33,454 nucleotides of DNA from a virus, in IMG/VR virus record IMGVR_UViG_3300021963_000401, positions 1 to 33,454 of that record; one strand, 5' to 3'. The notes under the pieces were generated by a model, which saw only the letters and a program-made list of their open reading frames with translations, was not told the DNA's origin and made no database searches. Below, piece by piece: positions 2,680 through 32,392 of this stretch (position 1 is its first letter; each line of letters opens with the position of its first letter). The position numbers and the translations under genes are program-made.

Positions 2680-4794
2680 TTGTTCGTCGACAATGATTTT
2701 CCGAAGCTGCTCGGTGCAGAACTCTACCGTCCGCATCCTGCGTACGTTGTAGAGATGGCTGCAGAGCCCGTGGTTGTGCACGATTTCTTGACCTGTTAAG
2801 GTCCGGGAACTTCCAGGCGAAATCCTGGTCGACAACTCCGTGAATTGCTGGAAAGCCGGACCCGAAAGGGAGGCCAATCAGCAGCCAAGCCAATCAGAAA
2901 TGGTTGGAAGGTTCAACGACTAACACTGCTCGAATGCTCTCTCGAAGCGACCGTTCCTTTTTAAAAGGTTCTTGTTTGGGCGATGGTTGCCTTAGGCACC
3001 AAGTGACTTATCCGAGTCTCTATATCGCTCATTCCAAAAAGCAGTTTGAGTATCTTCGCTGGAAAGTGGGGAGGCTTAACAGAATTTTTGGGATAAAACA
3101 ACCTATAAAAGAAAGGATATGCACTAATCAATTAGGAGAATATCCTGGTTGTCAGTGGTGGTCAAATCAACAAGAGCTGTTGCTTCCTCTGTATAAGGAG
3201 CTGTATCCGCAAGGAAAAAAGGTTTTAACCCCTGCATTTCTTCGCGATATTGGCTTAGAGGGTTTAGCTGTCCTTTATATGGACGACGGAAACCTCCATC
3301 TCCGCAAGCGTGGCCAATCCGCGCAAACCGGAGAACCTTACGTCAGAGAGCGCATTGTAGAGCTAGCTTTATACGTCCCTTACGACACTGCTTTATTTGT
3401 GTCGGATTGGATCGAAAGCTTAACCGGTGCCTCATTGACTCCACGAGAGCCGATGAAATCGAAGAGCCCCGATAAGTGGAATCTTCGCGGTAACGGAACT
3501 CAAGCTCGGTTATTCGTAGAGGCTCTTAAGCCCTATGGATGTAAAGCTATGGCTTACAAATTCGACCTCCGCTACGACACTCGAACTAATCGAGGTAAGT
3601 CCAAGTGGAGCGAGGCTGACCGCAACAAATTTGTTGTAGAAGCCGATAAGGTGACACGAGCGCGGAGCACCCAAACAGATCAATCTAATTGACGCTGTGG
3701 GTGATGATATAGTCTACTTACTACCGTCCTTAAGGTAGTATTACGTGAAGATAAAGAGCTTCACGGTACTCGATTGAGTATTAAAGGCGAAGCAACCCGG
3801 CCAGACCGTTCAGCTTGACCGTTATCGTTTCTGGGGCAACCCCGGCTCGAAAGAGTCTCGGGAGCGCACTGCTGAGCAGACCCTCGGTACTGCCAACAGC
3901 CGGAACATCGTCAAGGACAAGGTGCTCGTGACCCTCCGCGAGTACACCGGTCCTGCCGACCCGACTGACCCCACCCAGCCCAGCACCTTCAAGATTGCTC
4001 GCGAGACTCTGATCACCGCGCAGCGTCTTCTGCTGGACACCGGCAACCTGACTGCTTTCCACCAGTCCATCGGTTCTCTGACTCTGCTCGACGACTATCG
4101 TCGTTGGCGCGATCGGGTGTTCATCAACGAACTCCTGAAAGCTGTTTCCAAGGGTCAAGCTTCCGACAGCCAAGGTGGTTACTACTACCCCGGCAACCTG
4201 GCCGTCGGTAGCCTCACCTACACCAACGCCGAGCAAGCTAAGTTCGACGTTAAGGACGACCTGCTGCGCGTGGTGAAGAGCCTGCGTAAGCGTAACGTCC
4301 CCACCTTCCAGGATGGTTTCTATCGCTGCGTTTGCGATCCGACCTTCCTGATGCACCTGCGTCAGAACAGCGACTTCCGTGAAGTTGCTCGTTACCCCGG
4401 CAACGGTCAGATCAACCCCCTCATGTCGGCAATGCAGCCCAACGCTGCGCTGTACATGGGTCAAGGCTTCGGCCAAGCCACCTTCGTGGCTGGCGAGCCG
4501 ATCATGCCCACCGGCTTCGTGTTCGAAGGCGTGCGCTTCTTTGAGTCGACAAACATGCCGTCTCAGAACGCAACCGCTTCCATCGGCGGTGCCTCGGCCT
4601 CTTACGAGACTGCGATCGGTATGTTCTTCGGTCCCCAGAGCGTTGGCGTCGGTATCGGCGGTAACAATGCTCAGGTGCTGCTGAACAATAATGACGACTT
4701 CAGCCGTTTCATCATGATGATTTGGAGCCTGTACGCAGGTTTCGAACTTCTGAACGCTGACTTCGCCACCGTCGCTTACTCCTTTAACGCTTGA
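2680..4794 (+). CDS. Major capsid protein, interrupted by a group I intron (exons 2680-2788 and 3788-4794)
   Basis: Exon 1 encodes MFVDNDFPKLLGAELY... to VVVHDF; exon 2 resumes with KQPGQTVQLDRYRFWG and runs to FATVAYSFNA. Joining 2788 to 3788 restores frame through a Ser codon and gives 371 residues. The start is taken as TTG 2680 because a GGAGG (2667-2671) lies eight bases upstream and no ATG precedes it in frame; ATG 2755 is the alternative. Capsid identity is inferred from size, place after a scaffold-like gene, strong C-ending codon bias and tight coupling to the next abundant structural gene. Without splicing, ribosomes stop at TAA 2797. The exact junction is predicted from intron base pairing, not from a transcript. 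Confidence 0.8.
2789..3787 (+). mobile_element. Group I self-splicing intron, 999 bases
   Basis: The conserved core elements are visible in order: P (AATTGCTGGAAA, 2843-2854), Q (AATCAGCAGCCAAG, 2876-2889), R (GTTCAACGACTAA, 2911-2923) and S (GATATAGTCTA, 3706-3716). GACTA in R pairs perfectly with TAGTC in S to form P7. Three hairpins follow S (CTACC/GGTAG, CGTGAAG/CTTCACG, TACTC/GAGTA), as in the P9 region. A P1 can form between exon TTTCT (2784-2788) and GGGAA (2805-2809), placing a U-G wobble at 2788; the intron then ends in G at 3787. The endonuclease gene sits between R and S, in the P8 loop. Splice sites are predicted. Confidence 0.9.
2934..3692 (+). CDS. LAGLIDADG homing endonuclease encoded in the intron
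   Basis: The protein has 252 residues from ATG 2934; a TTG at 2904 in the same frame would overlap the intron R element and is less likely. Two LAGLIDADG-type motifs are visible: LKGSCLGDG at residues 10-18 and GLAVLYMDDG at 110-119, so one chain may form both half-sites. The acidic residues D17 and D118 are at the positions expected for catalysis. Such enzymes cut intron-less alleles of the host gene, here presumably the capsid gene around the 2788/3788 junction, and spread the intron by repair. The gene is more AT-rich than the exons, fitting separate ancestry. Confidence 0.9.
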   Translation: MLSRSDRSFLKGSCLGDGCLRHQVTYPSLYIAHSKKQFEYLRWKVGRLNRIFGIKQPIKERICTNQLGEYPGCQWWSNQQELLLPLYKELYPQGKKVLTPAFLRDIGLEGLAVLYMDDGNLHLRKRGQSAQTGEPYVRERIVELALYVPYDTALFVSDWIESLTGASLTPREPMKSKSPDKWNLRGNGTQARLFVEALKPYGCKAMAYKFDLRYDTRTNRGKSKWSEADRNKFVVEADKVTRARSTQTDQSN

Positions 4795-8673: not shown

Positions 8674-8681
8674 CTAAACTT
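8674..8681 (+). promoter_or_regulatory. CTAAACTT motif upstream of a virion gene
   Basis: One of three exact plus-strand copies of CTAAACTT in the window (others at 20247 and 23185). All three lie in intergenic gaps upstream of plus-strand genes. Here it is 22 bases before the TTG start at 8703. A promoter or processing role is conjecture. Confidence 0.25.
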
Positions 8682-11174: not shown

Positions 11175-11777
11175 ATGACTTCAACACCTGTTATTTTACT
11201 TTTAAAGCGTTCCGGTCAGGCTTCCGATAGACCCAGCGGCACCGTGGTTCAGAACGGTGAACTCGCGATTGCCGTTGGTGCTGCCGATCCGGGACTCTAT
11301 TTTGAGGATTCGGCGGGCGCTATCCGGAAGATCGGTCCGTCTCATTACGGAACTACAGCCCCGAACTCCACCCCCGTAGGTCTAACAGGTAACTCTGTTG
11401 GAGAGTTATGGACCGACAGCTCTACTTCAGAATATTATTTAAAGGTTTGGACTGGTTCAGCCTGGCAAAAAATAGGGGCTTCGTTCGCTGATTCAGCAAC
11501 CTCTGCCGGATCTGCTGTTACTGCTGGATCCGCTGTACTGGCATCGGGAGCGATCCTCGCGTCAGGTACCGTCCTGGCGTCGGGAGCCCGCACAGCAATA
11601 TTGGCGTCAGGAGCGATACTGGCTTCTGGTGTTGTAAAAAGCGCAGATGTTGGCCTAAGCGGATTACCCAGCCCAACCGCTTACGGGTCGGGTTATATGT
11701 TCTACCAAATTCAAACGTCCGGTGTTTACCCGGCAGGTCTGTATATTCAGTTCTCTAACGCTTGGACTCAGGTTTAA
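11175..11777 (+). CDS. Fibre-like protein with ASG repeats
   Basis: The 200-residue protein begins with the module typical of phage fibres and tail adhesins: a short strand (VILLLKRSG) followed by NGELAIAVGAADPGLYFED. Then comes a G.LW.D....YLKVWTG..WQKIG motif, also found in the fibre gene at 20282. Residues 112-154 are a tandem repeat built on ASGAI/ASGTV units, likely a narrow beta or fibrous shaft. It closes the plus-strand virion block. Its stop overlaps the convergent Dps stop by three to four bases, so the two transcripts meet with no gap. Confidence 0.65.
   Translation: MTSTPVILLLKRSGQASDRPSGTVVQNGELAIAVGAADPGLYFEDSAGAIRKIGPSHYGTTAPNSTPVGLTGNSVGELWTDSSTSEYYLKVWTGSAWQKIGASFADSATSAGSAVTAGSAVLASGAILASGTVLASGARTAILASGAILASGVVKSADVGLSGLPSPTAYGSGYMFYQIQTSGVYPAGLYIQFSNAWTQV
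11507..11636 (+). repeat. Short tandem repeats coding for SAGSAV/ASGAIL units
   Basis: Imperfect 18-base repeats (ggcgtcgggagc-like) encode successive ASG-containing hexapeptides in the shaft of the fibre-like protein. Copies differ mainly at third codon positions, suggesting selection on the peptide. Confidence 0.6.
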
Positions 11778-12307
11778 TCGCGAAGCGTGGCCTTCAGGAA
11801 CCACGCCGCTTTGAACATCTGACCCACTAAATCAGCGGCGTAGTTTTCGATATCGGGAGCCTGAACCTCTTTTGCCAGCGTACCAATATTCTTGGCCAAC
11901 ATGCCGCCGGCTTCAAGATTCTTGGTATATACCGTCAGCATCTCGCGAGCGTCGTAAGACTTAACGCTCTTGAAGTTTTTGTATGCGCCTTGGAGCCCCT
12001 TGGCGCACATCGGCATCAGATAATCCATGGACCGCACAAACTCAGCGAGGGTATCGAACTGAGTGATGTGTGCGTCGTACTGCGTTTTTAAAAATTCGTG
12101 AATCGGTAAGAAAAGAGGGCCTTCGATATTTAAATGAATCAGGTGTGATTGTGTGTACAGCTGATTAACGTACGAACCCATGGCCACGAGCTGACTAATA
12201 AGTTCGTCAACCGTGGCCTTAGGCTGCACTTCCTGCTCTTCGATAACGACCATGCCCTCAATAGGCGCGGTCATTTGGGGTGTTTCGAAAGAGCCGGAAA
12301 ACGTCAT
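11774..12307 (-). CDS. Dps-family mini-ferritin
   Basis: The 177-residue product has the Dps four-helix pattern. Its ferroxidase ligands fall at exact Dps spacing: His58 and His70 (HLNIEGPLFLPIH, 12 apart), Asp85 and Glu89, matching H31, H43, D58 and E62 of classic Dps. About 30 extra N-terminal residues (Glu/Gln-rich) precede the first helix. Dps proteins form 12-subunit shells that oxidise iron with peroxide and store it; some coat DNA. Here there is no obvious Lys-rich DNA-binding tail. It follows a small HTH gene on the same strand with a two-base gap, so both likely share a transcript and the HTH may regulate it. Confidence 0.85.
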   Translation of the reverse strand: MTFSGSFETPQMTAPIEGMVVIEEQEVQPKATVDELISQLVAMGSYVNQLYTQSHLIHLNIEGPLFLPIHEFLKTQYDAHITQFDTLAEFVRSMDYLMPMCAKGLQGAYKNFKSVKSYDAREMLTVYTKNLEAGGMLAKNIGTLAKEVQAPDIENYAADLVGQMFKAAWFLKATLRD

Positions 12308-12309
12308 TT

Positions 12310-12576
12310 TCAGAAGGTGCAGGCAACTGCAACAGGCATTTCTTCTGTTTCTACTTTAGCGGTAGAGGAACTTTGGAGATATTCTTCGAGAGCAGTTTTG
12401 TTGACGCGGTACAGAGACTTGGCGCCATTGGGCTGCAGGTTCACGTAAACAGACTTAGGCCAACCGCCAGGCTGATTTGCTTCAGATAACGCAATGCGCT
12501 TACGGACAAAGCCGGAGCTGCAGTTAAGAAGTTCAGCGGTTTCAGCGATGGTAAGAAGTGCTTTACCGTCCGACAT
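12310..12576 (-). CDS. Small HTH (excisionase/MerR-like) DNA-binding protein
   Basis: Residues 8-33 (LTIAETAELLNCSSGFVRKR) form a helix-turn-helix like that of the excisionase or MerR-type small DNA-binding proteins. A wing-like stretch follows (WPKSVYVNLQPNGAKSLYRV) and then a C-terminal helix (LEEYL). The protein is only 88 residues and has no effector domain. It lies directly upstream of the Dps-like gene on the same strand, so local autoregulation and control of Dps is a reasonable guess. A TATAAATC sequence is 27-34 bases upstream of its start. Confidence 0.65.
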   Translation of the reverse strand: MSDGKALLTIAETAELLNCSSGFVRKRIALSEANQPGGWPKSVYVNLQPNGAKSLYRVNKTALEEYLQSSSTAKVETEEMPVAVACTF

Positions 12577-12659: not shown

Positions 12660-13346
12660 TTAATCTTTGTGTGAAGGAGGCGAATCGAGACGCGAACGGC
12701 TGTGTTTATGTTTTAACCCAAGTTCATTTTTAAGTCTTGATACTGTCGCAGAAGATGTTTTTAAAATTTTACAAATTTCTTTATTGTAGTATCCCTCTTT
12801 AAGCATATTTTTTATACTGTTGTACTTTTCAACATGTCTTTTTTTATGAGTTTGTTTAATTAAAAATTTAGTTTCATCTGTCGTTTTTTTACCTAAATGT
12901 GCTTTTACTGGGTTTTTATGCTTAGCTATTTTTAATTTAAGTTTATGGTTTTCAGATAATTTCCTTCCTTTTAATTTTTTACTTATTTTATCTTTAACAC
13001 TTTTTCTTTTTGCGGGGTTTTTTTCTCCCGTTAATCCTCCTCTGCCTCCCTCAGCTATGTTATAGCTAGGTTTTAATTTACTTATCCAATACTTTTCTTT
13101 ATCGTCAATATTATCTAAGGTTGTAAACTCTAGGACACCTTTAATACCTTTATTTTTTATTTTATTTGGTATAACACCTCCAGTATAATAATTTGATTTT
13201 GTGCCGCTACTTTTACCTACATATTTTATTTTGCCGTTATATACAATTGCGTAAATATGAGGCACAGAAAAAGTGTTGTTAAAATCGTAAGGGGAGCGCC
13301 ATTTATGTCTAAGCTTAATAGGTGAAGGCAAATTTAAAATGTCCAT
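12660..13346 (-). CDS. GIY-YIG homing endonuclease (free-standing)
   Basis: The N-terminal domain carries the two strands of the GIY-YIG fold (IYAIVY at residues 31-36, YVGKS at 42-46). Then come EKYWISKLKPSYNIAEGG, with Glu84 as the likely metal ligand and Asn97 of the final motif. A Lys-rich linker with NUMOD-like repeats (KISKKLKGRKLSENHK) and a C-terminal HTH (YYNKEICKILKTSSATVSRL) provide DNA binding. Base composition is markedly more AT-rich than the genes on either side, as expected of an invading Seg-type endonuclease gene. Its start codon overlaps head to head with the plus-strand gene at 13339. Confidence 0.85.
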   Translation of the reverse strand: MDILNLPSPIKLRHKWRSPYDFNNTFSVPHIYAIVYNGKIKYVGKSSGTKSNYYTGGVIPNKIKNKGIKGVLEFTTLDNIDDKEKYWISKLKPSYNIAEGGRGGLTGEKNPAKRKSVKDKISKKLKGRKLSENHKLKLKIAKHKNPVKAHLGKKTTDETKFLIKQTHKKRHVEKYNSIKNMLKEGYYNKEICKILKTSSATVSRLKNELGLKHKHSRSRLDSPPSHKD

Positions 13347-13587
13347 ACGTTTAGCGGGAGAGAGATTTCGTGATTTTAATGTACCAAAGCGTGACGTTCA
13401 GAGTGGCAAGGAATACTCCGTGGCAGCCAAAGAAGGTGATACGGTCCGCTTAGTTCGTTTTGGCGATCCTAATATGGAAAATAGGAGCGATGACCCTAAA
13501 CGACGTGCAGCATTTCGCTCTAGGCATAGCTGTGATGAAAAGAAGAGTAAGTTAACTCCAGGCTATTGGAGCTGCAAAAACTGGTAA
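13339..13587 (+). CDS. Small conserved cyanophage protein (LAGERF...YWSCKNW type)
   Basis: This 82-residue protein fits a small family I recognise from cyanophages: N-terminal LAGERF.DFN.PKR, central AKEGDTVRLVRFGDPNM, and a C-terminal RR..FR.RH....YW..K.W. I believe it is catalogued as a domain of unknown function (possibly DUF6321). It is basic and compact with several Cys residues near the end. Its first eight bases overlap the divergent GIY-YIG gene, which appears to have inserted immediately upstream. A terminator follows. Function unknown. Confidence 0.65.
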   Translation: MSIRLAGERFRDFNVPKRDVQSGKEYSVAAKEGDTVRLVRFGDPNMENRSDDPKRRAAFRSRHSCDEKKSKLTPGYWSCKNW

Positions 13588-13611: not shown

Positions 13612-13636
13612 GCTCTGAGTTTCAGAGTCTTTTTTT
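13612..13636 (+). terminator. Intrinsic terminator after the small conserved gene
   Basis: CTCTGA (13613-13618) pairs with TCAGAG (13622-13627) around a 3-base loop and is followed by a T-rich run (TCTTTTTTT). The hairpin is shorter than those at 1012 and 5695. Confidence 0.75.
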
Positions 13637-13672
13637 AAGTAGAGCTAGACTTTAATTAGTCGGCTCACCGCG

Positions 13673-13924
13673 ATGGCTTCACGTAAGTCGAATGAGTCTC
13701 AAAGCCTTAATTGTGGTCTGACTTTAGAAGACGAGTTCGTTCTGACTCGGATTCGGACAAAAGCGCACTCATTAAAAGACAAGGACCGCGATCAGTATTT
13801 GTGGGCGACGGTTTTTAAATTGATTTGTCGGGAGCGTGCTTATAAAACTGTTATGAATGAAGTTGGTATAGCGATGGACACAAATATGAGCCTTTTCGAC
13901 GACGAATTAGATACTGACGAGTAA
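13673..13924 (+). CDS. nblA: NblA-like phycobilisome degradation protein
   Basis: The 83-residue protein aligns by eye with NblA: LTLEDEF (16-22) corresponds to the LSLEQQF of the first helix, and RERAY (53-57) to the REATY of the second helix, at matching spacing. NblA is a small helical adaptor that links phycobilisome subunits to the Clp protease so that the antenna is dismantled. The segment after RERAY (KTVMNEVGI) departs from the usual YxxLLK ending needed for phycobiliprotein contact. Active NblA has been reported from cyanophages, so a viral copy is plausible. It is a single gene after a terminator, upstream of a lysin gene, and begins with a 14-residue extra N-terminus. Confidence 0.7.
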   Translation: MASRKSNESQSLNCGLTLEDEFVLTRIRTKAHSLKDKDRDQYLWATVFKLICRERAYKTVMNEVGIAMDTNMSLFDDELDTDE

Positions 13925-13986: not shown

Positions 13987-15348
13987 ATGACCGAACGCGA
14001 ATTACTAGAGCAGTTTCGTGGGACCCAGGAAGGTCAGCGATTACTGCAAGCAATTCGCTTTGCTGAGGGAACTTCGGGTCCCAAGGGCTACCAAACTATG
14101 TTTGGCGGCGGTACTTTTGCAGATTTAAGTAAGCACCCCGATACTATTGTCTCCAAAGGCGGCTACAAGAGTGCCGCAGCAGGTGCGTATCAATTTCTGC
14201 CCGACACGTGGTCTCGTCAAGCTTCCCGTCTTGGTCTGGGGTCGTTTGGACCTAAGGAACAAGATATCGCTGCTTTAGCACTGGCTCGAAATCGTTTGAT
14301 GGGACTTGGCGGCTTGGCTGCTCTGCAGCGCGAAGGCTTAAGCCCCAGGGTGGCCGCCGCACTGTCGCCGGAGTGGGCTTCCTTCCCCATGGAATCGGGC
14401 AAAAGTTATCACAATCAGCCCGTTAAATCCCTTGAATCTATTCAAAAGGTTTACGGTCAAACTCCTGCACCTGTTATTGACGGGACCGATCCCTCTGCTG
14501 TTGCGGCTACTCCTGTTAGCCCTGTAAGTCTGCCTCGATATGACTTTCAGGGTGCGATGAAGAGCATCGTTCAGGATTTTGCTCAGAAGCTCGTGGCTCC
14601 GCCCACAGGCGATGACGCGTCCATTCAATATTTAGAGTTAGCGAATGCTCTGGAAGGTCAGGGGAACGCGGACCTTGCGGAAGAATATCGGAGCAAAGCT
14701 TTGATGGCGTCGAGTACAGGGTCAGCCTCGTCGCTGGATCCTATTGCGTTAGCGCAACAGGTTGTGGCCGCCAAGTTACAGGAAAAAAGCTACAACCAGC
14801 AGGTGCAGAGTCTCGAAGACCAGATAAATAAAGCTATCGGAGCGCAGCCTGCGCAACAAACAGGCGCAACTTTACAAGGCGGTCCCGGAGGAGCCATACC
14901 CGGCGTACAAATTACATCCGCTGTGGATACCTCAGGGGAGCCCGGCTTTGACTTTGTTATTCCGGGGGGACGCGGAGCAGCGTTCAAGCTCCCTTTCCAA
15001 GCTCAGGTCCTTAAGGTCGTCAGCGATCCCTGGGAAACAAACTTAGAGAAAGGTCCTGGCCGCCGTGGTTACGGTAATTACGTTGACGTTCGCGGCGTAG
15101 ATCCGAAGACTGGTCAATCGTTTGATGTCCGGTTAGCTCATTTCGACAAGCTGAATCCAAACTTAAAGCCTGGCGCGGTTATTAACCCCGGTACGTTTAT
15201 TGGAACTCAAGGTCGTTCTGGTTCTACGACGGGCGCTCACGTTTCTGCTGATTTCTATGATCCGGGTAAAACTACAACGAGTTCTGAAGTTCTTAGACTT
15301 CGTGATCAAATCCGCGATAGACTAGCAAAAGGACAACCCGTGCTGTAG
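13987..15348 (+). CDS. Virion-associated lysin: lysozyme-like domain plus M23-like domain
   Basis: Residues 15-150 match a lysozyme-like fold of the lambda-R/GH104 sort: IRFAEGT with Glu27 as likely catalytic acid, GYQTMFGG, SAAAGAYQF (62-70) and the FGPKEQDIAAL motif. A low-complexity linker (160-310) precedes a C-terminal beta domain like LytM/M23 peptidases (GYGNYVDVRG, LAHFDKLNPNLKPGAVIN, GRSGSTTGAH). Zinc ligands are not all kept: Asp322 is present, but the usual His four residues before it is Glu318, and the final HxH is H418-x-S420. The M23-like part is therefore probably non-catalytic or altered. It would act on host peptidoglycan, likely from the tail. Confidence 0.8.
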   Translation: MTERELLEQFRGTQEGQRLLQAIRFAEGTSGPKGYQTMFGGGTFADLSKHPDTIVSKGGYKSAAAGAYQFLPDTWSRQASRLGLGSFGPKEQDIAALALARNRLMGLGGLAALQREGLSPRVAAALSPEWASFPMESGKSYHNQPVKSLESIQKVYGQTPAPVIDGTDPSAVAATPVSPVSLPRYDFQGAMKSIVQDFAQKLVAPPTGDDASIQYLELANALEGQGNADLAEEYRSKALMASSTGSASSLDPIALAQQVVAAKLQEKSYNQQVQSLEDQINKAIGAQPAQQTGATLQGGPGGAIPGVQITSAVDTSGEPGFDFVIPGGRGAAFKLPFQAQVLKVVSDPWETNLEKGPGRRGYGNYVDVRGVDPKTGQSFDVRLAHFDKLNPNLKPGAVINPGTFIGTQGRSGSTTGAHVSADFYDPGKTTTSSEVLRLRDQIRDRLAKGQPVL

Positions 15349-24565: not shown

Positions 24566-25186
24566 GTGGCTTATCAAAGTATTTGGTATTTTACAGATTT
24601 GCCAGAAGATGTCGTTTCTATTATTGAAAAGGATTTAAAAGAGAAGTATGATGAGTTTCTAGCGGACTCCAGAATACATGGAGATGCTTTAAACAAAGAG
24701 CAAAGAAATTCAAAGAACGCGTGGATCCCCACTACCAGTTGGATTGGTGGATTTATTTGGCATTTTATTGAGCGAGCGAACAGAGAAAATTTTCTTTACG
24801 ATTTAAGGTGTATTGACGGTGAATCGATGCAATATACTCGGTATGAAAAAGGAGAATTTTACAATTGGCATAATGACGCGGGATTGTCAACACAATATAA
24901 ACCTGTTTCAATTGGAAATAGAGCAGACGGTTTAGCACAAGATTATTTAAATGAGAAATTAGAGATGGTTCGAAAACTTTCTTTTGTGCTTCAATTATCC
25001 GATCCGAACGACTACGAGGGAGGAAACCTTCAACTCCTAAACGAAGCTGGTAAAACATACATAGCTCCAAGAAAACGGGGAACTATTATTTTGTTTGATT
25101 CCAGAACTCAACATCGAGTAATAAAAGTAAGAAGCGGCGTAAGAAAATCTTTAGTTGGTTGGACAGTTGGCCCTCGTTGGAAATGA
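24566..25186 (+). CDS. 2OG-Fe(II) oxygenase, PKHD-like
   Basis: The 206-residue protein has the complete double-stranded beta-helix ligand set: His102 and Asp104 (YNWHNDAG), distal His183 (TQHRV) and Arg193, which would bind 2-oxoglutarate. LSFVLQLSDPNDYEGGNLQL matches the usual core strands. Such enzymes hydroxylate proteins, nucleic acids or small molecules; the substrate cannot be read from sequence. The start is GTG 24566. It is followed within seven bases by a second, different oxygenase. Confidence 0.85.
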   Translation: MAYQSIWYFTDLPEDVVSIIEKDLKEKYDEFLADSRIHGDALNKEQRNSKNAWIPTTSWIGGFIWHFIERANRENFLYDLRCIDGESMQYTRYEKGEFYNWHNDAGLSTQYKPVSIGNRADGLAQDYLNEKLEMVRKLSFVLQLSDPNDYEGGNLQLLNEAGKTYIAPRKRGTIILFDSRTQHRVIKVRSGVRKSLVGWTVGPRWK

Positions 25187-25909: not shown

Positions 25910-26806
25910 TTATTCTACAAGAAGCATTATTTTATATTCAAACATTTTTTTCCAATTTGATTTCCAACGCGCCCAAAATTCTTGGCAGTTGCGTTGTACT
26001 TCATCACCCTTTTTATTTTTTTCAATATCCTGCACTTTTTCTAGAGCTTCTGCCCAAGAATCTGCAACTACGAACGGCATTGTGCTGTCGCCATAAAAGA
26101 CAGCGTGCCAATAGGATGGTTTTACTTGCAGGTGTTCTGCTGAAGCAAGCACCACGGGGATGCACCCAGCCTCAAGTGCCTCGTAAATTCGGAAACAGTC
26201 ATTATTAACTTGCCCTCGTGGGCACAAAGCAAATTTACTTTGCTCCAACATACTTACGTATTTGTGTGTTTCTAATCCGTCTTTCGCATTAAACCCGCTG
26301 ACCGAATGAATTTTATGCGGATTTAACTTTTTAAAAGTTTCAACTGCGTCTTTTCTAAAATCATCATGAAAACTACCCGCAAAACTCCAGATGTATCGTC
26401 GCTCGCTATATAGAGGTGATTTCTCCTTAGTCCTAAAATTGTTTTTGTAACCCAAACCAAACGTGAATACTTTTGGGTGCTTTAGATACAAGGGATTGAA
26501 GTAATTTCGCGCAACAAAAACACAGTTCGGATCGTGCACATACTCCATTTTTTCGCACACGTTTTCGTCAGATAATAAAACGACAGCGTATTTCTTATTG
26601 TTCTGACGCAAGGTATCGAGGTATTCTCGATAATTGATTGCGTGATTTGCAACAACCACCGTTGGTTTATTTACAGGTAATCCGTAAAACTCGTTTGTAA
26701 TCAAGAACTGCGCGAATGTATCTTCGAGTAGATAACTAAGCCAATCGTGCTCCCATTGATGCAGGTTCACATCTAGCCAGACAACGTTAACAGCAGAAAC
26801 TGACAT
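25910..26806 (-). CDS. Exostosin-like (GT47-type) glycosyltransferase
   Basis: The C-terminal half contains the exostosin/GT47 pattern KFALCPRGQVNNDCFRIYEALEAGCIPVVLAS, where FR.YEAL..GCIPV is the diagnostic nucleotide-sugar-binding block. The upstream part (NFRTKEKSPLYSERRYIWSFAGSFHDD) also fits this family. Start ATG 26806 (MSVSAVNV) is preferred; an ATG at 26830 would add eight residues. It may modify host or virion glycans, next to an array of fibre genes. Acceptor and donor sugars are unknown. Confidence 0.8.
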   Translation of the reverse strand: MSVSAVNVVWLDVNLHQWEHDWLSYLLEDTFAQFLITNEFYGLPVNKPTVVVANHAINYREYLDTLRQNNKKYAVVLLSDENVCEKMEYVHDPNCVFVARNYFNPLYLKHPKVFTFGLGYKNNFRTKEKSPLYSERRYIWSFAGSFHDDFRKDAVETFKKLNPHKIHSVSGFNAKDGLETHKYVSMLEQSKFALCPRGQVNNDCFRIYEALEAGCIPVVLASAEHLQVKPSYWHAVFYGDSTMPFVVADSWAEALEKVQDIEKNKKGDEVQRNCQEFWARWKSNWKKMFEYKIMLLVE

Positions 26807-26880
26807 ACACATTAAATTTGAAGTCAACAAAGCTTAGCGTGTTTTTTCTCAGTACACTACATTGGAATCTTTAGAAATGA

Positions 26881-27258
26881 ATGAAAGGCAAGCATCTTGT
26901 TTTAGACATGTATGACTGTAATGTCACTAAAATTAACGACCCTCTTTTTGTTGACTCAGTACTTACAGAAGCATCTAATATTGCTAAGTCTACTTTACTG
27001 AACCTAAAGCTTCATTTATTTGAGCCGCACGGTATTACAGGGTTTGCTCTGCTGGCTCAGTCGCACATTTCGTTTCACAGCTGGCCCGAAAACGGGTACG
27101 TCGCTGTGGACATTTATACGTGCGGCGAAGACACCGATCCCGCAGAAGCGATTAGCTACATTATCGACCAGTTTCAGGCTGAGCGATATTCGCTCAATAC
27201 CTTGAGTCGTTATTCACCTGAATCTTTAGTTAATGTTTCAAGTTTAGTAGCCGTTTAG
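26881..27258 (+). CDS. speD: S-adenosylmethionine decarboxylase proenzyme (prokaryotic type)
   Basis: The 125-residue protein has the pyruvoyl-enzyme pattern of SpeD: AQSHISFHSWPENGYVAVDIYTCG. Ser61 is the self-cleavage serine that becomes pyruvoyl, with His66 and Cys81 as catalytic residues, in exact register with the Thermotoga enzyme (63, 68, 83). The residue before the cleaved serine is Gln60 rather than the usual Glu. It makes decarboxylated AdoMet for polyamine synthesis; cyanophages often carry speD. It begins 75 bases from the divergent glycosyltransferase gene. Confidence 0.9.
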   Translation: MKGKHLVLDMYDCNVTKINDPLFVDSVLTEASNIAKSTLLNLKLHLFEPHGITGFALLAQSHISFHSWPENGYVAVDIYTCGEDTDPAEAISYIIDQFQAERYSLNTLSRYSPESLVNVSSLVAV

Positions 27259-27282: not shown

Positions 27283-27723
27283 GTGAGTGAAACTAACGAA
27301 CAAGAGTTAGTTTTCAATCTTCAATGTTTACAGCGCCGTACAGCTAGAAAACGTTTTCGTAAGGATATTCTTGAGTCTTGGGACAATACGTGTGCCTACT
27401 GCGGTTCTGACAGGGCGCACACGTTAGATCACGTTGTTCCGCGTGCCAGGGGCGGCCCTACAAAGCGCGGCAACCTACTAGCGTGTTGTCCTACCTGCAA
27501 CCTCCAAAAATCTGACTTAGACTGGCTGTTATGGTTTCGCTCTCAGAGTTTCTGGACCTCTGATCGAGAAGATGCTATCTGGCATTGGCTGAGTTACAAC
27601 CACGAGTCTAGTATAGCTGCTCGCGAATACGAAGAAGCGTGCCGAGAGCCGTTGAAGCTCCCAGCACGCTTTGAAAATGAACTGGAATCAGCGCTTAGCG
27701 AGGCGAGTGACGATACCCGCTAA
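27283..27723 (+). CDS. HNH endonuclease with CxxC zinc pairs
   Basis: The core reads CAYCGSDRAHTLDHVVPRARGG...NLLACCPTCN. Cys37/Cys40 and Cys69/Cys72 form the structural zinc site; His50 (LDHV) and Asn64 (GNLL) belong to the HNH motif. A basic N-terminus (RRTARKRFRK) and a longer C-terminal extension follow. The GTG start 27283 lies inside a small hairpin (CACAC/GTGTG, 27273-27285). The gene overlaps the convergent holin-like gene by 36 bases. It could be free-standing homing or packaging-associated. Confidence 0.85.
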   Translation: MSETNEQELVFNLQCLQRRTARKRFRKDILESWDNTCAYCGSDRAHTLDHVVPRARGGPTKRGNLLACCPTCNLQKSDLDWLLWFRSQSFWTSDREDAIWHWLSYNHESSIAAREYEEACREPLKLPARFENELESALSEASDDTR

Positions 27724-28557: not shown

Positions 28558-28995
28558 ATGTCGCAGTTCACTAAAAATTTAGAGCTGGATAGCGTCATTA
28601 ATAGCGGACTTACGGATCCCTCTCGCCGCACTGAGTCGACTCATTTCGACCAACGCCGTACCCTCGATGCCAGCGGCGTGGTTGTAATCGCAGCGTCTTC
28701 TCGTGAATATGCAGCTGACGGCATCTACGGTATTTCTGATTACTACCAGTTAACCCTGAACGCCACTGGTATTCTGCGCGTTAATATCCGTAATCAAAAT
28801 TCCTGCGGCGATGTTGTTGTCCTTAATTCCTCCGGTGTTCCCGTTTTAACGGCTGAACCTTCGAAGTTCAGCTCGCGGGCGACATCGACGACAACGACCA
28901 CGGTTAACACCTCGGGTACTTACTTCACCTACATCCAACTCAAGGGTCGTAGCGGCGCCGAGTACCGCGTGGGTATCGACGTTACTAGCGCCTGA
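28558..28995 (+). CDS. Beta-sandwich protein, 145 aa (PPC-like)
   Basis: ATG 28558 is chosen because it follows the intergenic gap and removes residues that would overlap the divergent gene; an upstream TTG at 28450 is the alternative. Strands such as YYQLTLNATGILRVNIRNQN and GTYFTYIQLKGRSGAEYRVG resemble the bacterial pre-peptidase C-terminal (PPC) fold. TGA overlaps the lysin ATG by one base, so the two proteins are made together. It may decorate the virion or bind the lysin's target. Confidence 0.65.
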   Translation: MSQFTKNLELDSVINSGLTDPSRRTESTHFDQRRTLDASGVVVIAASSREYAADGIYGISDYYQLTLNATGILRVNIRNQNSCGDVVVLNSSGVPVLTAEPSKFSSRATSTTTTTVNTSGTYFTYIQLKGRSGAEYRVGIDVTSA

Positions 28996-30239
28996 TGCGA
29001 GTTTCCCCAGAAGGGGCGGCTTTTATCAAGAAGTTTGAGGGTCTTCGTTTATCCTCCTACGAGTGCCAGGCCGGTGTCTGGACTGTGGGGTACGGAACGA
29101 CAGGCCCCGACATCGGCCCCGATACAAAAATTACCAAGCAGGAAGCGGAGATTTTATTCGCTTCTGATTTGATGCAATTTGAAAGCGGCGTTCGAGATTT
29201 TCTTAAAGTAACCGTTAATCAAAATCAGTTCGACGCCCTAGTCAGTTTTGCTTACAACGTCGGGCTTAGTGCGTTTCGTAATTCAACGCTTTTAAGATTA
29301 CTAAACGACCGAGCGGACACCCAGATTGTTGCAGCAGAGTTCTTACGTTGGATTTACGCTGGGAACAAAAAAGCGAGTGAAGGCTTAAAAATCAGGCGCG
29401 AGAAGGAAAAGCAGTTATTTTTAACCAAGCCCATCAACTCCGCTTTGGCGCACTCGATTCTTGCCCAACGGGACACGTGGCTGAAACGCAAGCCTCTCGA
29501 CGCCAATTCCTTGGCGGCGGAAGAGAAGTTATTCGTACCTAAAGGTTCCGCGCACATCTGGCAAACCATCACAATGGTGCCAGGCGAAACTCATTATAGA
29601 GTTCAGCTCGAAGCTCAACCCGATAAGCCCTGGTGGATCTATCCGCCGCATTGGAAGATTATTAACGATCCAAAGCCTTCAGAACAGGCAGCCCCTGCCA
29701 CGCCAGCAACAAAATTAGTTTTAGACGTTCCTTATTTTTCTCAGCGCGATAATCGACGGGATCCCTCGCGAACCTGTTTTTCCAGCTCATGCGCGATGCT
29801 GCTTAAATTTTTGAAACCCAACAGCATCAAAACTGATGATGACTATGTAAATACTGTTTTTCGTAAAGGAGATACTGTTTCTGCTAATGCACAGTTGGCG
29901 GCACTGAGTGAGTACGGCATCAAAGCTGACTTCAAGCAAAACGGTAGTTGGGCCGATATTGATGCTCAATTAGCTTTGGGTATTCCTGTTCCCATCGGCA
30001 TTCTTCACCGGGGGCCCGTTCAAAGCCCGACCGGCGGTGGTCATTGGATCATTGTTATCGGACGCAACGCAGATAATACGGCTTATATAGTTCACGATCC
30101 TTATGGTGATTTAGATTTGATTAATGGGGGTTACATATCCGATGATGGCGATGCCAAATCTTATTCGAGAAAGAACTTAGGCCCCCGCTGGCTTGTAGAG
30201 TCCCCTAAAAGTGGTTGGTTTATCAAGGCTTACAAATGA
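28995..30239 (+). CDS. Lysozyme (GH24-type) fused to a C39-like cysteine peptidase
   Basis: Residues 1-140 are a T4/P22-type lysozyme: Glu15, Cys24 and Thr30 have the E-8aa-C-5aa-T spacing of the P22-type catalytic triad (FEGLRLSSYECQAGVWTVGY). A linker with an SH3-like part follows (about 175-235). Residues 248-405 look like peptidase C39/papain-like: Cys261 (RTCFSSSCAM), His350 (GGGHWIIVIG) and Asp368 (VHDPYG). The peptidase could cut stem peptides or process virion proteins. Such a fusion is unusual; lysis, tail-tip or maturation roles are all possible. It overlaps the previous and next genes by one to four bases. Confidence 0.8.
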   Translation: MRVSPEGAAFIKKFEGLRLSSYECQAGVWTVGYGTTGPDIGPDTKITKQEAEILFASDLMQFESGVRDFLKVTVNQNQFDALVSFAYNVGLSAFRNSTLLRLLNDRADTQIVAAEFLRWIYAGNKKASEGLKIRREKEKQLFLTKPINSALAHSILAQRDTWLKRKPLDANSLAAEEKLFVPKGSAHIWQTITMVPGETHYRVQLEAQPDKPWWIYPPHWKIINDPKPSEQAAPATPATKLVLDVPYFSQRDNRRDPSRTCFSSSCAMLLKFLKPNSIKTDDDYVNTVFRKGDTVSANAQLAALSEYGIKADFKQNGSWADIDAQLALGIPVPIGILHRGPVQSPTGGGHWIIVIGRNADNTAYIVHDPYGDLDLINGGYISDDGDAKSYSRKNLGPRWLVESPKSGWFIKAYK

Positions 30240-31533: not shown

Positions 31534-31698
31534 ATGCGTTTTGCTGGACCTGCGATGCACACGGATCCCTCCAAGATCCCGTATGTTACTGATCGGATGG
31601 CAGGAGAGCTGCCGAAGAAAAATCCGGGGTTGGTAGAGCGAATCACAGACGCTATAGTTCCTGGGTCGAAGCAAGCAAGTAGTGGCGGCTCGCAATAG
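31534..31698 (+). CDS. Small protein, 54 aa, overlapping thyX
   Basis: ATG 31534 to TAG 31696-31698; the product is Pro/Gly-containing with no recognised family. It overlaps the thyX start (GTG 31682) by 17 bases, supporting coupled translation. Function unknown. Confidence 0.45.
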   Translation: MRFAGPAMHTDPSKIPYVTDRMAGELPKKNPGLVERITDAIVPGSKQASSGGSQ

Positions 31699-32392
31699 GC
31701 TTCATTCGGTATCTCTCGACTGGATTACGCCGGAAGCTGAGCGAATTGTCGCTTCGCACGCGAGAGTATCGACTAAAGATCCAGACCGTGGCGAAGCAAT
31801 CCGCCTACTGAACTACTGCATCAAACACGGACACTGGAGTGTGTTTGAGCAGGTTTGTGCGTCGTTTGAGATCATAACAACTCGTGCAATCTCACCTCAG
31901 ATCTTACGTCACAGAAGTTTTACATTCCAGGAAACGAGTCAGCGCTACTGCGATCCGTTAGATGTTTTAGATCAGGTAACGCCCGAAGCACCTCTCTTCG
32001 AGCTTCGCGCTCAGGATCAAAAAAACCGTCAAAACAGTTACGCCTTTGATGACGACTCCGTTGAGCAGGAGTTTCGGGATCGAATTTTCGATCTGTTTGA
32101 GCGGTCTCAGGAGCTGTATCAGGATCTTTTGAACGCCGGCGTGGCGAAAGAGTGCGCCCGTAACGCGCTTCTTATGTGTGTCCCGACCCGTCTTCACATG
32201 ATGGGCACGCTGCGTAGCTGGATCTTCTATGTGGGTCTTCGCAATGCGCCGGGCACGCAGCTAGAGCATCGGTTTATCGCCCAGGAGATCGGGCAGCGCC
32301 TGCAGCAGGAGACTCCCGTTATCGTTGATGCTCTTGTGAATTCTGCTGCGGCGGACAGCTCCAACGGTCTCGCTGGTTGGCTACATCTATAA
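31682..32392 (+). CDS. thyX: FAD-dependent thymidylate synthase
   Basis: The 236-residue protein has the ThyX signature RHRSFTFQETSQRY at residues 76-89, the cyanobacterial variant of RHRxxSxNExSxRY, plus the C-terminal EHRFIAQEIGQRL block. ThyX makes dTMP from dUMP with FAD, NADPH and methylenetetrahydrofolate. The start is GTG 31682. Cyanophages often carry thyX to support genome replication. A shared terminator-like hairpin follows, facing the convergent minus-strand gene. Confidence 0.95.
   Translation: MAARNRLHSVSLDWITPEAERIVASHARVSTKDPDRGEAIRLLNYCIKHGHWSVFEQVCASFEIITTRAISPQILRHRSFTFQETSQRYCDPLDVLDQVTPEAPLFELRAQDQKNRQNSYAFDDDSVEQEFRDRIFDLFERSQELYQDLLNAGVAKECARNALLMCVPTRLHMMGTLRSWIFYVGLRNAPGTQLEHRFIAQEIGQRLQQETPVIVDALVNSAAADSSNGLAGWLHL

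Follow-up and report, generated by a model that had tools for sequence, protein, structure and literature searches.

An NblA-like gene among virion genes

Cyanobacteria feed their light-harvesting antennae to a protease with the small adaptor NblA. Phage-borne nblA genes have been known since Ma-LMM01, and versions from marine phages were reportedly described by Nadel et al. in 2019. The locus studied here raises the question of whether a short open reading frame among the virion and lysin genes of an uncultured virus encodes such an adaptor, and what the adaptor would do there. The window, that is, the whole stretch of DNA analyzed, is 33,454 nucleotides long. We assign a probability of about two in three to the reading that the protein is a protease adaptor: a remote NblA homolog of an S-EIV1-like cyanophage lineage, which would trigger phycobilisome breakdown late in infection. 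The homology to NblA is well supported at the sequence level, and the function is what we infer.

The open reading frame had been described correctly, with its start and stop codons in place and a product of 83 residues (Table 1). Scans of viral contigs yielded 64 further loci that encode the window protein at 53–93% identity. Seventeen positions were invariant in a 40-row alignment (C14, L16, E19, D20, E21, F22, L24, T25, A31, R39, D40, W44, E54, R55, A56, V60, and G65). Among the relatives of the window gene, dN ranged from 0.05 to 0.33 and synonymous sites were saturated in most pairs, which indicates strong purifying selection on the frame. The NblA-like ORF is a genuine, strongly constrained gene.

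Table 1. Features of the NblA-like locus, in window coordinates.
Feature	Position	Strand	Remarks
Dps/ferritin-like protein	11774..12307	-	fixed marker left of the locus; Pfam Ferritin 39.6 bits
Helix-turn-helix protein	12310..12576	-	fixed marker left of the locus
phrog_7595 gene	13339..13587	+	upstream neighbor in most window-type phages; also near the S-EIV1 NblA-like gene
Terminator-like hairpin with T run	13612..13628	+	between the upstream gene and the NblA-like gene; one found, shuffles average 3.7, weak alone
GCTAGACTTTAATTA, candidate promoter -10 region	13644..13658	+	about 27 bases before the start codon; kept in many relatives
NblA-like protein gene	13673..13924	+	ORF of 83 aa (ATG 13673, stop 13924); 64 related loci; purifying selection
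Cys14 codon	13712..13714	+	fully conserved across the window-type family, unlike in NblA and the S-EIV1 type
NblA-like helix-loop-helix core, residues 16–61	13718..13855	+	Pfam NblA profile positions 2–47 of 50, 16.4 bits; predicted helices 18–32 and 37–64
LTLEDEF, residues 16–22	13718..13738	+	corresponds to the reported ClpC-binding motif of NblA; L16, E19, D20, E21, F22 invariant in 40 relatives
RERAYKTVMN, residues 53–62	13829..13858	+	corresponds to the reported phycobiliprotein-binding end of NblA; N62 at NblA position 53 (position table)
Added C-terminal tail EVGIAMDTNMSLFDDELDTDE	13859..13921	+	conserved, acidic; T70, N71, F75 in at least 90% of 40 relatives
Lysozyme-like/M23 virion peptidoglycan hydrolase	13987..15348	+	downstream neighbor; phrog_90 1.7e-25; M23 match below the Pfam cut-off

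Homology to NblA

The preliminary description had proposed a profile search for NblA. NblA (PF04485) was indeed the sole Pfam family matched by the window protein (E = 0.013), but the score of 16.4 bits fell below the gathering cut-off of 25 bits. By Pfam's standard, the protein is not an NblA member, and it is named NblA-like here. The E value was 4.2e-4 when the 33-kb record was searched by itself. Among 25 relatives scanned singly, 19 matched Pfam NblA (best E = 0.0012), and every other Pfam family was matched by at most one of them. The NCBIfam and PHROGs searches gave no match for the window protein; this result and the subthreshold Pfam score both count against the adaptor reading. A PDB sequence match to Hsp104 (E = 0.21) was at chance level and was discarded.

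Direct tblastn searches with the window protein and with Anabaena NblA against 50,697 phage records returned nothing, so profiles were required. The NblA reference alignment comprised 46 rows, of which three came from the PDB and two were phage NblAs; the others were drawn from a range of cyanobacterial genomes. Profile–profile comparison of the window family with these NblAs gave an alignment of 51 columns with a probability of 90% and a score of 33.4. Column shuffling, repeated 150 times, reached at most 19.2, and the reversed alignment scored 9.6. Identity over the 51 columns was 18%. The profiles thus point to remote homology with PF04485, and the alignment ran without a gap, which bears out the earlier claim that the motifs are spaced as in NblA.

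A counterpart in the nearest isolate came to light through the head protein of the window, which matched a single phage record, Synechococcus phage S-EIV1, at 64.5% identity. The window protein had no direct sequence match in S-EIV1, and it was a home-made NblA profile that picked out AHV82245 (KJ410740, 73902–74222), annotated as hypothetical. The neighbors of AHV82245 are a phrog_7595 gene (131 bits) and a lysozyme. In the window, phrog_7595 is followed by the NblA-like gene and then the lysozyme-like gene; in S-EIV1, a small ORF and the lysozyme come after phrog_7595, and the NblA-like gene is last. AHV82245 matched NblA and nothing else in Pfam (16.3 bits). The family of this S-EIV1 type, drawn from 31 related contigs, scored 45.2 against NblA in the profile–profile comparison (shuffle maximum 18.2). 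All 13 members scanned matched Pfam NblA (best E = 6e-6), two of them above the cut-off at 27.1 and 26.5 bits. In a search of 6122 distinct ORFs from the two phage groups with an NblA profile, ranks 1–60 all lay at the NblA-like locus, and rank 61 was the first elsewhere.

The profile–profile score between the window family and the S-EIV1 family was 14.1, not above that of shuffles (up to 17.0), which counts against the adaptor reading. The two families are joined by their shared genomic place and by a common pull to NblA. Both types have the phrog_7595/lysozyme neighborhood, the NblA core, an acidic tail, and a position 53 without a basic residue. The S-EIV1 type, represented by AHV82245 and its metagenomic relatives, differs in being closer to NblA, with two members over the Pfam cut-off, and in having a longer second part, for which an additional helix is predicted. 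With the profile–profile score, the relatives matching Pfam NblA, and an S-EIV1-type counterpart partly above the cut-off, the earlier assignment of the window protein to the NblA homologs is probably right.

Predicted structure

Single-chain AlphaFold models were of modest confidence, with a mean pLDDT of 63.9 for the window protein and 72.3 for the S-EIV1 protein. Both were helix-loop-helix, with helices at residues 18–32 and 37–64 in the window protein and 16–30 and 34–61 in the S-EIV1 protein. The registers of the two proteins lie two residues apart in the NblA alignment, and the helices therefore coincide within one residue. Neither Foldseek nor VIA-align listed a solved NblA for either model; such modest models, each comprising two helices of a dimer, make a weak query. 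At this model confidence, the structure comparison suggested in the preliminary description speaks neither for nor against an NblA fold.

Kept and lost NblA residues

According to published accounts, NblA binds ClpC through a conserved motif close to its N terminus and phycobiliproteins through one close to its C terminus (PMC4103541; PMC7760959). LTLEDEF, RERAY at residues 53–57, and the following YKTVMNEVGI were found in the window protein where they had been placed. Anabaena NblA numbering corresponds to the window residue minus 9. LTLEDEF agrees with the LxLExxF pattern of NblA: the equivalents of its L, E, and F are nearly invariant in the 46 NblAs, and L7, L9, E10, and F13 (Anabaena numbering) are retained in the window family. 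Toward the other end, R44-E45 is kept as window R53 and E54, position 49 is basic (K58; 37 of 40 relatives), and positions 51–52 are still hydrophobic (V60, M61), so that the NblA pattern of R/K-E/D at 44–45, basic 49, and hydrophobic 51–52 is present. These five residues of the window protein are conserved among its relatives.

Position 53 is where the window protein departs from NblA. It is K or R in 38 of the 46 NblAs, N62 in the window protein, mostly D, N, A, S, or Q in the relatives, and an invariant Ala in the S-EIV1 family. The basic residue is gone from both phage groups, a loss near the reported phycobiliprotein-binding end that counts against the adaptor reading. Leu51 and Lys53 of NblA are presumably the pair that binds phycobiliproteins. 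The claim that a conserved YxxLLK end had been replaced holds mainly for this one residue. YxxLLK itself is the Nostoc form and no rule of the family (of the 46 NblAs, 19 have Y and 16 have I at position 48, and 39 have R/K at position 49), and Y57, K58, V60, and M61 of the window protein match. What had been called an altered phycobiliprotein-binding end is thus an end that lost one conserved basic residue and gained an acidic tail, with most of the helix end retained. By the published motif map, the protease-docking end is preserved, as is most of the cargo end apart from the telling change at position 53.

The tail follows the consensus G-x-x-x-DTN-xx-LFDD in the window family, and its last 16–20 residues carry a net charge of -2 to -8 in 40/40 relatives. 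The S-EIV1 type bears its own acidic tail. Neither Cys14, which precedes the first helix, nor the acidic tail was found in the cyanobacterial NblAs of the 46-row alignment. A second cysteine, Cys52 (codon 13826–13828), is present in 38 of 40 members of the window family and is not typical of NblA. Bilin handling or dimer linkage is a possible role for Cys14 and Cys52. A Cys14–Cys52 disulfide is unlikely as a rule; two relatives with Cys14 carry Leu at position 52. We also considered NMSLF in the tail as a sliding-clamp-binding motif. Such motifs begin with Gln, and this candidate was dropped, as none of the sequences has the leading Gln and NMSLF is replaced by KIIEDD in two relatives. The kept ClpC-docking half and a cargo half rebuilt by the free position 53, Cys14, and the DTNxxLFDD tail could mean a target other than, or besides, phycobiliproteins, which we regard as unlikely.

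Genomic setting and expression

In 64/64 relatives, the locus forms one syntenic block, consisting of Dps (minus strand), the helix-turn-helix gene (minus), phrog_7595 (plus; in most), the NblA-like gene (plus), and the lysin (plus) where the contig extends, with a Dam-like gene (minus) beyond. Loci were also picked by the head protein, independently of the NblA-like gene, although this set overlaps the earlier one in some contigs. All 19 loci of this kind that span the interval carry the gene, which makes it a core gene of the lineage. Virion and lysin genes do surround it, as noted from the outset, but a place apart from photosynthesis genes is nothing unusual, because the nblA of S-SCSM1 likewise lies outside them.

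While letters resembling GCTAGACTTTAATTA persist in many relatives, the rest of the spacer drifts. The core of the element, YTARACT, occurs in 10 copies on the plus strand of the window. Eight of the 10 are found 15–90 bases before a plus-strand gene, a zone that makes up 8.6% of positions; the binomial value of 1e-7 is optimistic, as the pattern was chosen after one site had been seen. Sites upstream of plus-strand genes include those at 8674, 13645, 20247, 21871, 23185, 27255, and 30392. YTARACT looks like a candidate phage promoter class of the lineage, common to structural genes, and this sharing suggests late expression of the NblA-like gene.

An ORF at 12660–13346 (minus strand) resembles a GIY-YIG homing endonuclease; the N-terminal motif was recognized by eye, and Pfam gave weak helix-turn-helix matches. 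The window, L064, and L065 carry it, whereas the other 62 relatives do not. This restricted presence marks it as a mobile insertion adjoining the NblA-like block.

Host and origin

S-EIV1, the nearest isolate, infects Synechococcus, and the kinship of the head proteins indirectly supports a cyanobacterial host for the window phage. psbA was not found in 27 related contigs, so the host assignment rests on the S-EIV1 kinship. NblA was found above the Pfam cut-off in 90 of 244 cyanobacterial genomes. The window-family profile revealed no credible relative in these 244 genomes, where its matches were short fragments at chance level, several with stop codons, and genome contigs scanned with it yielded none. 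These searches therefore lend no support to a recent capture from a host; as far as they tell, the gene is an old phage version. A match of the same profile in S-SCSM1 lay inside a lectin gene, contained two stops, and was rejected as chance.

Proposed function and alternatives

If the protein acts as an adaptor, LxLExxF at its N terminus would serve as the docking site for the host ClpC chaperone, and the helix hairpin together with the C-terminal end would hold phycobilisome proteins. The host Clp protease (ClpC–ClpP) would then degrade the antenna during infection, which could free amino acids for virion synthesis and lessen light damage. The protein is probably produced with the late genes, because its gene lies within the virion block and has the promoter-like element common to structural genes. 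Expression of other phage NblAs in Synechocystis or S. elongatus was reported to bring about phycobilin loss (PMC9602691). The lineage of uncultured cyanophages with this gene probably dismantles host antennae too.

The position of the gene in the virion block counts against the adaptor reading. The protein could instead be an NblA descendant that now serves the virion, as a small helical hairpin that helps to assemble the tail or lysin or is itself packaged. The constant position of its gene next to a virion-type lysozyme in every relative, the promoter-like element, and the lost basic residue at position 53 would fit such a role. The ClpC-docking motif is, however, the most constrained part of the protein and would not be needed structurally, and in S-EIV1 the gene lies on the opposite side of the lysozyme, which argues for a loose tie to one partner gene. 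We consider a virion role unlikely.

A Clp adaptor with a new target would keep the docking end and use the cargo end and acidic tail to bring another host protein to ClpC. The invariant N-terminal motif, the freedom of position 53 to vary among D, N, A, S, and Q, and the new conserved tail with DTNxxLFDD are in line with this, but the C-terminal helix end is mostly retained (basic 49, hydrophobic 51–52), and among cyanobacteria NblA cargo binding tolerates broad sequence variation, which makes a change of target quite unlikely. Convergence of two unrelated small helical hairpins is highly improbable: the subthreshold Pfam match of the window protein, the 18% identity over 51 columns, and the Foldseek result without NblA would suit it, but the shuffle controls, two families at one locus that point to NblA alone (one of them over the Pfam cut-off), and a nearest isolate that infects a phycobilisome-bearing host all speak against it.

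As a protease adaptor, the window protein can be set beside the known NblAs. Cyanobacterial NblA (PF04485; 1OJH, 2Q8V, 2QDO, 3CS5) has LxLExxF, the helix-loop-helix that is predicted here, R/K-E/D at 44–45, basic 49, and hydrophobic 51–52 in common with it. Cyanobacterial NblA has about 60 residues and a basic position 53, whereas the window protein has 83, lacks the basic residue, carries Cys14 and the acidic tail, and scores below the Pfam cut-off. The NblAs of the freshwater cyanophages Ma-LMM01 and PaV-LD are phage-borne, like the window protein, and activity has been reported for them (PMC9602691, PMC4103541). In contrast to it, they are clear Pfam members (52 and 45 bits), keep the basic residue at 53, and belong to other lineages and gene settings. 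S-SCSM1_237 and the marine phage NblA of Nadel et al. 2019 are distant NblA homologs in picocyanobacterial phages. The published S-SCSM1 nblA lies between a virion gene and a helicase, and S-SCSM1_237 has no Pfam NblA match. On the same home-made profile, the window protein scored 16.3 bits and the published S-SCSM1 NblA 9.2 bits; judged by usage in the field, the window protein would therefore be called NblA.

Phage NblAs as such were already known; new here is the window type with its tail, Cys14, and lost basic residue. According to the tree legend in PMC9602691, the sequences of Nadel et al. 2019 included environmental and siphovirus ones, and the S-EIV1 type may already be among them. The literature searched contained no report of nblA in S-EIV1, nor does the table of PMC5332604 list one. 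Standard annotation overlooks the gene, through the Pfam cut-off, NCBIfam, and PHROGs, and the S-EIV1 counterpart is labeled hypothetical. If the gene is functional, antenna breakdown would be built into infection throughout a widespread cyanophage lineage and be no occasional extra, in a group whose 27 searched contigs yielded no psbA. The family also offers a natural test of which NblA residues dock ClpC and which hold cargo.

Other genes of the window and S-EIV1

The head-protein ORF of the window matches one continuous plus-strand reading in S-EIV1 (KJ410740 60970–61986; L229 5971–6987), at 66% over 340 aa. The KJ410740 annotation has a minus-strand ORF at 60784–61545 and a shorter plus-strand ORF at 61540–62010 in this place; the head gene of S-EIV1 appears to be mis-annotated. 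Upstream of the head gene, the window encodes a LAGLIDADG_2 endonuclease (2904–3692), and an HNH protein weakly similar to IscB lies at 27283–27723. Cargo typical of cyanophages includes a 2OG-Fe(II) oxygenase (24566–25186), an exostosin/RXYLT1-like glycosyltransferase (25910–26830, minus strand), S-adenosylmethionine decarboxylase (SpeD, 26881–27258), and ThyX (31682–32392). An endolysin at 28995–30239 combines a phage lysozyme with a C39-like peptidase domain, and its best match is in Synechococcus phage S-CBS2 (39.8%).
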